From NCBI RefSeq assembly GCF_040267685.1, contig NZ_CP158367.1, forward strand, positions 2,170,001 to 2,234,000: 64,000 nucleotides of DNA, written 5' to 3'. Positions 14,580 through 56,838 of the stretch are shown piece after piece (the first letter of the stretch is position 1; the number at the start of each line of letters is the position of its first letter). The notes under the pieces are model-generated. The model searched no databases, had not been told where the DNA came from, and worked only from the letters and a program-made list of their open reading frames with translations. The DNA is from Proteinivorax tanatarense (lineage in GTDB: Bacteria > Bacillota > Proteinivoracia > Proteinivoracales > Proteinivoracaceae). A program made the translations under genes and the position numbers.

Positions 14580-14609
14580 TTGATATTTCTTAATTTAGTG
14601 TGTTATAAT
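14580..14609 (+). promoter_or_regulatory. hflX leader promoter
   Basis: TTGATA (14580-14585) and TATAAT (14604-14609) with 18-base spacing give a good sigma-A promoter. Transcription would start near 14616, leaving a leader of about 280 bases before hflX. Confidence 0.7.
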
Positions 14610-14643
14610 AGCTTTAAGTTAGTTATGTTGGGAGGTTTCATTG

Positions 14644-14703
14644 ATGATTAAGGTAGCTTTCTTCCGTATTGGAAGAATCCGTTTGCGTATTTCACGCAGT
14701 TAA
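14644..14703 (+). CDS. Leader peptide of hflX (19 aa, Arg-rich)
   Basis: ATG with GGGAGG 8 bases upstream encodes MIKVAFFRIGRIRLRISRS and stops at 14703. It contains RLR, the Arg-x-Arg type motif known to stall macrolide-bound ribosomes in erm-type leaders. Hairpins and a terminator follow before hflX. Role in antibiotic-dependent attenuation is inferred; HflX homologues in Listeria are controlled by an upstream-ORF attenuator. Confidence 0.6.
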   Translation: MIKVAFFRIGRIRLRISRS

Positions 14704-14788
14704 ACTTAAATAGCATTACGCTCTTTTTAAGAGCAAACGGGATTGGTCTGCCTTTTTTAATGGAACCCTATATAATTTGAGTTTTGGG

Positions 14789-14815
14789 AGGTAGGATGAA
14801 TCTACCTTTTTTTTT
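14789..14815 (+). terminator. Candidate attenuator terminator in the hflX leader
   Basis: Stem AGGTAG (14789-14794) / CTACCT (14802-14807), extendable by G-U pairs, followed by nine T. The 3' arm can alternatively pair with AAGGTAG (14650-14656) in the leader-peptide gene, a possible antiterminator. Confidence 0.5.
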
Positions 14816-14837
14816 GCGTCTATTTTTAGAGGCATAA
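14796..14837 (+). CDS. Second mini-ORF in the hflX leader (13 aa)
   Basis: ATG preceded by GGGAGG encodes MNLPFFLRLFLEA and spans the terminator loop, 3' arm and T tract. Its ribosome site lies in the 5' arm of the terminator, so translation and hairpin formation would exclude each other. It could be a second sensing peptide or chance. Confidence 0.35.
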   Translation: MNLPFFLRLFLEA

Positions 14838-14896
14838 TATGAAAAATAATTATCATTAGACCCATTCCTGTATCAAAATAATTGGAGGGGATAAAT

Positions 14897-16159
14897 ATGG
14901 AACAAACAAAAAAAGCTATACTGGTGGGAGTAAATTTAAAAAACAACCTAGATTTTCAATACTCTATGGAAGAGTTAGCTAATTTGGCAGATGCCTGCGG
15001 TATTGTCGTGATAGAAAAAGTAGTTCAAAACTTAGATCATATAAATACATCCCACTATGTGGGAAAAGGGAAAGTAAACGACATACATCAGCTGGTACAG
15101 CAGGAGGAAAGTGATCTTGTTATATTTAACAACGAGCTTTCTCCTTCACAGATTAGAAACCTAGAAGAAGGCTTAAACTGTACAATTATGGATAGAACCA
15201 GCCTTATTTTGGATATTTTTTACCAACGGGCAAAAACAAAAGAAGCAAAACTTCAGGTGGAAATAGCACAGCTTCAGTACATGCTGCCTCGACTAAGAAA
15301 TTCTGAACTATCTTTGGAGCAACAACGGGGTGGCACAGGAACTATCATGAGAGGAGCTGGAGAAACAAAGCTGGAGCTTGATAGACGTAAAATTCAAAAG
15401 CAAATTTCTGAGCTTAACAAACAGCTTAAGGACTTAGTTGCAAGAAGACAAACACAGCGAAAACAAAGACAAAAATCTAATGTTCCGGTTATTTCGTTGG
15501 TAGGCTACACCAACGCTGGCAAATCCACTGTTATGAACTCCATGCTAGAAACCTATAACCCTGAGGCTGAAAAGTCAGTGTATGAAGAAGATATGCTATT
15601 TGCCACGCTTCGCACCTCAGTTAGAAACATTACCCTGTTTGATAATAAGTCTTTCCTATTAACTGACACAGTAGGGTTTGTAAGCGACCTACCTCACCAT
15701 CTTGTAAAAGCGTTTCGTTCAACTTTAGAAGAGGTTACAGAGTCTGACCTTTTAGTTCACGTTGTTGATTATTCAAACCCAAGTTATGAAAAACAGATTG
15801 AAGTAACTAATAGTACTTTAAGGGATATAGGAGTTAAAGATATCCCAGTAATTTATGCATACAACAAATGCGACCTTACAGATTTACGCATCCCGAAAAT
15901 TAACGGGGAGAAGGTATATCTTTCCGCTAAACAAAAAGTAGGGCTTAAAGAGCTGACCGAGCTTATCGAAAACAAAATTTTTACTGACTATGTAAAATGT
16001 GAGTTGGTAATCCCTTATGATAGAGGGGATGTAGTTTCATATTTCAACGAAAACGCCACAATCATATCCACTAGCTATGAAAAGGAAGGAACTAAGATAA
16101 AGGTTGAGTGTAAAGAGAAAGATCTAGATAAGCATCAAGAGTTTGTGCTTAGTTGTTAA
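14897..16159 (+). CDS. hflX: Ribosome-associated GTPase HflX
   Basis: 420 residues. Splits stalled or hibernating 70S ribosomes and, in some Gram-positives, gives resistance to ribosome-targeting antibiotics. N-terminal HflX domain with HYVGKGK, glycine-rich RGAGETKLELDRR before a coiled linker (about 163-195), then the G domain with Walker A GYTNAGKS (203-210), DTVGF and NKCD. ATG at 14897 follows GGAGGGG. The long leader with two mini-ORFs and a terminator-like hairpin suggests expression is induced when ribosomes stall. Confidence 0.95.
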   Translation: MEQTKKAILVGVNLKNNLDFQYSMEELANLADACGIVVIEKVVQNLDHINTSHYVGKGKVNDIHQLVQQEESDLVIFNNELSPSQIRNLEEGLNCTIMDRTSLILDIFYQRAKTKEAKLQVEIAQLQYMLPRLRNSELSLEQQRGGTGTIMRGAGETKLELDRRKIQKQISELNKQLKDLVARRQTQRKQRQKSNVPVISLVGYTNAGKSTVMNSMLETYNPEAEKSVYEEDMLFATLRTSVRNITLFDNKSFLLTDTVGFVSDLPHHLVKAFRSTLEEVTESDLLVHVVDYSNPSYEKQIEVTNSTLRDIGVKDIPVIYAYNKCDLTDLRIPKINGEKVYLSAKQKVGLKELTELIENKIFTDYVKCELVIPYDRGDVVSYFNENATIISTSYEKEGTKIKVECKEKDLDKHQEFVLSC

Positions 16160-56580: not shown

Positions 56581-56838
56581 GGAGTATAAATAATTCCTCC
56601 CATAAATCTACCACATTACTCCTTACGATTCGGGTAGTGTTCGACTTTGTTTTGTACTACAAACTCGTCCGTCCTAAGCAAGCCTTGTATGTGGTTTGTG
56701 TTCCTCAGACCGGGATTTTGCTTAAGGCTTCCTTCAGATTCCACCTCACGATGGACACCCTTGCCTTTGGCTAGTGGTTCCCACTACCAAGCCCACAGCG
56801 GACTTTCACCGCCAAGTTAACGCACATGCTGGGCGCAC
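56581..56838 (-). mobile_element. Group IIC intron remnant (domain I only)
   Basis: Read on the minus strand it begins GTGCGCCCAGCATG, then GGTGAAAGTCC, CAAGGGTGTCC, GTGGAATCTGAAGGAAGC, GGTCTGAGGAACAC, GAGTTTG and ACAAAACAAAGTC. These are domain I landmarks of bacterial class C group II introns (Oceanobacillus type). No reverse transcriptase, domain V or VI follows; the rest is deleted. It sits directly downstream of the protease terminator, the usual target of class C introns. Confidence 0.85.

Follow-up and report, generated by a model that had tools for sequence, protein, structure and literature searches.

A probable hflXr-type attenuator before hflX in Proteinivorax tanatarense and the wider RNA family to which its leader belongs

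The window, a stretch of 64,000 nucleotides from Proteinivorax tanatarense (G000:C1:2170001-2234000), lies on one 3.09-Mb contig and carries hflX on its plus strand at 14897-16159 (TIGR03156, 449 bits). Upstream of the gene, on the same strand, is a leader whose elements, checked in the sequence along its whole length, were all found as a preliminary description had given them: a promoter, a GGGAGG, a 19-codon ORF, hairpins, a terminator stem with nine T and the hflX start. The promoter (14580-14609) is made up of a -35 TTGATA, an 18-bp spacer and an extended -10 TG-TATAAT; with 11/12 in a consensus scan it was the top-scoring match within the 3 kb scanned, and TGxTATAAT is also kept upstream of the leader of the sister species (G001). 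The Shine-Dalgarno sequence GGGAGG (14630-14635), likewise kept in the sister species, precedes a leader ORF of 19 codons and a stop, MIKVAFFRIGRIRLRISRS (14644-14703), which is predicted to be translated and in which 5 of the 19 codons encode Arg. This ORF contains an Arg/Lys-x-Arg/Lys (+X+) motif. The Arg motif had been assigned to codons 13-16; in the register shared with related leaders the homologous motif is instead R11-I12-R13, overlapped by L14-R15, that is, codons 11-15 (14674-14688). Further downstream are a hairpin, P3, GCUCUUUUUAAGAGC (14720-14734), seen in folding and in a covariance model, and an intrinsic terminator (14786-14815), seen in sequence and folding, with its stem at 14786-14810 and its nine T at 14807-14815, 80 bases upstream of hflX. 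The minimum free energy of the leader is -58.4 kcal/mol, compared with -43.7 +/- 4.1 in dinucleotide shuffles; since this is 3.6 sd below the shuffles and none of 200 was equally stable, the structure is not due to chance.

Folding of the leader gave two alternative structures. In the OFF fold, the spacer after the Shine-Dalgarno sequence, GGUUUCAUUGA (14634-14644), pairs with UUAAUGGAACC (14757-14767) to form P1, which is present in the minimum free energy fold; AAGGUAG in codons 3-5 of the leader ORF (14650-14656) pairs with CUGCCUU (14748-14754); and CCGUUUG, covering the I12-R13-L14 codons (14679-14685), pairs with CAAACGG (14734-14740) to form P2. In the ON fold, an antiterminator strand, GGAUUGGUCUGCCUUUUU (14740-14757), pairs with 14786-14803, onto which its freed 3' part folds with -16.3 kcal/mol. 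This strand contains UCUGCCUUUU (14747-14756), an upstream copy of the 3' arm of the terminator, UCUACCUUUU (14801-14810), and both copies therefore compete for one 5' arm. The preliminary description had proposed that AAGGTAG pairs with the 3' arm of the terminator. The complementarity holds, AAGGTAG and the CTACCTT of that arm being exact reverse complements, but the first partner of AAGGTAG should be the earlier copy CTGCCTT (14748-14754), which would make it an anti-antiterminator. A leader from Bacilli (L132), whose ORF MISKAAFFHSGRIRLHVMCR belongs, like that of the window, to the long type, has two copies that both read GGUCUGCC, and its counterpart of AAGGUAG is AAGGCAG.

The pairings that involve the leader ORF are conserved and covary among related leaders. 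P1, which joins the Shine-Dalgarno spacer to the stretch after GUCURCC, had a mean of -11.9 in 89 leaders versus -6.8 +/- 0.3 when permuted (0 of 5000 permutations, z -16.8), and it exceeded within-family permutation too. P2 pairs the Arg-codon strand with a conserved AACGGG element across leaders, in covariant sets such as CCGUUU/AAACGG, CCGAUU/AAUCGG, CCGACU/AAGCGG and CCGGAUG/CAUUCGG. In 71 of the 89 leaders, versus 42.6 expected (0 of 5000 permutations), the base at the wobble position of the second Arg codon makes a standard pair with its partner, and the P2 duplex energy is -9.18 versus -8.27 +/- 0.16 permuted (0 of 2000); shared ancestry stays in these permutation tests of P1 and P2, and the effect is also seen within gene families. 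A terminator-like hairpin follows the core in 79 of 100 related leaders (4.1 in shuffles), and in 52 of 74 leaders, compared with 26.2 by random placement, the best core-to-downstream duplex lies over a terminator 5' arm. This longer core-to-terminator duplex outperformed a general pairing of the A element with a second downstream CCCGUUUAC copy, a weak candidate for which 31 of 3000 permutations reached the observed value. Conservation among relatives, which the preliminary description had set as a test of its own reading, is borne out both by the ORF in the sister species and by the covarying pairings.

The preliminary description had further proposed that a ribosome on the Arg codons would free an antiterminator, and had suggested folding the leader with and without ribosome coverage. 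Carried out by equilibrium folding, this gave a terminator probability of 0.97 for the free RNA. A single ribosome on codons 11-15 left the fold OFF and the probability at 0.97, since at the motif it sits too far downstream to cover either P1 or AAGGUAG. In short leaders, the more usual type, the start of the ORF lies under the stalled ribosome itself. When two queued ribosomes were placed about ten codons apart, the terminator probability varied with their positions between 0.12 and 0.97; the lowest value came with the antiterminator formed, and several placements remained above 0.7. A single ribosome thus does not throw the switch in these folds, and two queued ribosomes do so in part. We infer that queued ribosomes or the cotranscriptional order of folding must matter for the switch in the window.

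The hflX gene downstream belongs to the HflXr clade rather than to the housekeeping one. In a maximum-likelihood tree its product falls in a clade of 40 rows (support 100/96) that includes Listeria valentina hflXr and members from Paenibacillus, Lactobacillaceae and Lachnospiraceae, and three genomes with two hflX copies (G574, G843 and G845) have one copy in each clade. This split agrees with the published one into an hflXr and an lmo1296 clade (PMC6310831). The sister species carries the same leader, with the ORF MIKVAFFRIGRIRLRFLSS, before an hflX that is 89% identical. No second true HflX was found in the window genome. In three genomes of the same family (G002-G004), which were compared by identity while the tree took in other rows, only an HflX of 41-42% identity to that of the window was found; the HflX proteins of Bacilli, another class, reach 60-65%. 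That the window genome has only an HflX of the HflXr clade and these searched family relatives only the more distant type may, as far as sequence comparison goes, reflect replacement or transfer. No recognisable +X+ leader was found near hflX, within the available flank, in Lysinibacillus, Solibacillus, Psychrobacillus, Indiicoccus and Clostridioides (C. difficile) (L033-L036, L055); the genes of Lysinibacillus, Solibacillus, Psychrobacillus and C. difficile are of the HflXr clade or related to it.

Homologs of the leader were searched for with a covariance model, R1, made from five leader cores of Bacilli, none of them from the genus of the window. R1 was built on the 3' core only, since whole-leader MAFFT alignments misaligned the leader ORF. 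It matched the window leader at 14694-14753 on the plus strand (31.4 bits, E 2.7e-7 in 278 kb) and, of 400 genomes from the class of G033, it hit 104. The conserved core consists of the UAAUUGAAUA stop-codon hairpin, a CUCUG..CAGAG hairpin and AACGGGAUUGGUCURCC. In 94 of 100 aligned leaders there is a +X+ ORF whose end falls in a fixed register, the first basic residue being mostly at codon 5 or 6. A second model, R2, was trained on 100 leaders, that of the window included; in a phylum sample, 17 of 399 genomes had a match, a few of them probably by chance. Among the 399 phylum genomes, a strict DNA pattern found only the window and one chance match inside a coding gene. A second pattern found two true leaders in 81 genomes of the family of G033 and missed G033 itself, because it required GG[AG]A where G033 has AGGA.

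To see what lies behind the core, the downstream proteins were clustered for 115 leaders, training and window leaders included. The clusters were HflX (32), ABC-F (21), Mph (19), Erm (18), Mef-like and other MFS (9), RlmA-II (7), Lmr(B)-like MFS (5) and singletons (4). Representatives were assigned by NCBIfam to Msr ABC-F, Mph(B), Erm, Mef(A/B), 23S G745/G748 methyltransferase and Lmr(B); one of the four singletons is a macrolide esterase (L217), and one MFS protein (L158) has its best scores to Tet families. A resistance-type gene therefore stands behind the core in about 112 of the 115, nearly all of the macrolide/lincosamide kind. The leader peptides MTHSIRLRFPTLNQ, MTHSMKLRFPTLNQ and MTHAMRLRFPTLNQ, for example, precede mef, mph and msr-type genes. 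The window genome itself has a second R2 match (L226) outside the window, at C1:1064809-1064868 on the minus strand (67.5 bits), with the ORF MGFCRLRFPTLNIK; the gene behind it encodes an Msr-family ABC-F protein (626 bits over partial sequence). Leaders of the family also lie before an Mph(B)-like gene in G002, of the same family, before an ABC-F gene in G006, of the same class, and on plasmids (L260-L262), before mef(F)-msr(G) in Macrococcoides canis, before an msr-type ABC-F gene and before mph in Planococcus. The record with the msr-type ABC-F plasmid leader is labelled Stenotrophomonas.

These results indicate that the hflX leader is very likely a ribosome-dependent transcription attenuator of the hflXr/ermK kind, and very probably a switch turned on by a ribosome stalled by a macrolide-type antibiotic. 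This reading is favored because the genes downstream of the RNA family are macrolide and lincosamide resistance families, and because an independently built model matched the leader and the sister species conserves it. Against it stand the equilibrium fold, which a single ribosome leaves OFF, the position of the +X+ motif in the window, at codons 11-15 rather than the usual 5-8, and the divergence of the window core, which scores 31 bits compared with 50-88 for many others; moreover, not every +X+ motif stalls ribosomes (PMC8298421). In the absence of drug, ribosomes would clear the leader ORF and the RNA would close into the OFF fold, with P1 (the Shine-Dalgarno spacer on 14757-14767), codons 3-5 on CUGCCUU and P2 (the Arg codons on CAAACGG) in place, so that the terminator would form and hflX would be off. 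A ribosome bound by a macrolide or lincosamide would stall at R11-I-R13-L-R15, probably with a second one queued at the start codon, and the OFF pairings would be blocked. The freed strand GGAUUGGUCUGCCUUUU (within 14740-14757) could then capture the terminator 5' arm at 14786-14803; polymerase would read through, and the HflXr made would split the stalled ribosomes. For the hflX locus, we infer the stall, the inducing drug, the readthrough and the resistance from the anatomy and from the relatives of the leader.

Other explanations must be weighed against this one. The preliminary description had spoken of translational attenuation, in which a stall mainly frees the ribosome-binding site of hflX rather than blocking termination. 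When the full-length RNA is folded, part of the hflX Shine-Dalgarno sequence (14884-14890) is indeed paired, and two ribosomes open it somewhat; tlrB (PMC6851288) and cplR (PMC10201436) combine transcriptional and translational layers. However, the unpairing, seen by folding alone, shifts modestly, a strong nine-T terminator lies 80 bases before the gene, and terminators accompany most related leaders (79/100). The anatomy is that of transcription attenuation, masking of the Shine-Dalgarno sequence is at most a weak extra layer, and a mainly translational switch is unlikely. CCCATTCC (window 14862-14890) can pair imperfectly with the Shine-Dalgarno sequence GGAGGGG, a possible translational layer with weak support from folding.

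An unregulated, fixed leader and terminator retained by descent could account for likeness between the two species compared in the genus, since an ordinary 5' region could stay conserved between two, but it would leave unexplained why P1 and P2 covary across 89 leaders, why a model from another class of the phylum matches the window and why the core is associated with resistance genes; we regard it as very unlikely. Still harder to credit is an arginine-starvation attenuator in which the five Arg codons among the 19 of the leader report charged tRNA-Arg: hflX is not an arginine-supply gene, the same core precedes macrolide and lincosamide resistance genes, and it is the +X+ spacing near the N terminus that is conserved and not the number of Arg. 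The attenuator reading keeps those parts of the preliminary description that sequence, folding and tree support, namely an Arg-x-Arg leader peptide, mutually exclusive pairings and a terminator upstream of a gene of the HflXr clade.

Several known leaders resemble that of the window. Attenuation of Listeria hflXr has been proven by mutation, and Listeria monocytogenes rli80-hflXr likewise combines an HflXr-clade gene and a short +X+ ORF with a terminator, an antiterminator and an anti-antiterminator (PMC6310831); the RNA core of the window leader is also present in the L. valentina counterpart (L040). The window leader, known from sequence alone, differs in having an ORF of 19 codons with its motif at codons 11-15, compared with 14 codons in Listeria, and in an extra hairpin and an A-tail pairing inside the ORF. 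The motif uORFC-6-1, with 51 examples mostly in Bacillales and primarily before hflX (PMC8632094), is by its description also a structured RNA with an Arg-Leu-Arg leader ORF; the window, in contrast, belongs to another class, and the same core precedes other kinds of gene. ermK is under transcription attenuation (PMC4335068), and the peptide type of ErmDL (MTHSMRLRFPTLNQ; PMC10314930) and ErmK from ermK/ermD of Bacillus licheniformis (PMC4335068, PMC8298421) recurs in several leaders of the family (L168, L171 and L183); in ermK/ermD itself the gene differs from that of the window and the motif is at codons 6-8. The B. subtilis tlrB (RlmA-II) leader, under dual transcriptional and translational attenuation (PMC6851288), has a +X+ peptide before a macrolide-resistance gene; its 9 residues, MIIQFIRYR, set it apart from the window, to which it is likened by peptide and gene type alone. 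The Streptococcus pneumoniae mef(E)/mel leader (MTASMRLR; PMC4335068) is likened by its +X+ peptide and by transcription attenuation alone. Between the mef(E) and ermK leaders no RNA homology was seen beyond the peptide (PMC4335068).

The likeness of the peptides among mef, msr and erm leaders is already known, and in the literature searched, largely without subscription papers, we found no description of one RNA core across these gene families. The hflX leader is well conserved and very probably an attenuator of the hflXr type, which would extend this control to another class of the phylum, and the family is wider than we found described; this wider family matters more than the single hflX locus. 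Leaders studied gene by gene, such as those of ermK and hflXr, share one core, which is also found before mph, msr, mef-like, rlmA-II, lmrB-like and esterase genes, and a common mechanism could consequently be tested once rather than per gene. The core may also serve as a search tool for inducible resistance genes and singles out uncharacterised genes that are predicted to be induced by drugs. It precedes a PRK08263-like short-chain dehydrogenase in two genomes from different families (L192 and L247), a candidate for an uncharacterised macrolide/lincosamide resistance gene; neither leader shows a +X+ motif clearly at the register where one is expected. Alpha/beta hydrolases lie behind two weaker core matches (L245 and L217), that of L245 being without a clear family. 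We lean towards the view that one homologous RNA sensor module has become linked, on chromosomes and plasmids across Bacillota, to eight or more unrelated families of macrolide/lincosamide-resistance genes, and that the dehydrogenase, seen twice, and the alpha/beta hydrolase behind the module are undiscovered resistance genes.

None of the 4227 Rfam models matched the leader at gathering score, and permissive thresholds also gave no meaningful match to it. Elsewhere in the window, a Group II intron domain (RF02001) lies at 56584-56755 on the minus strand.
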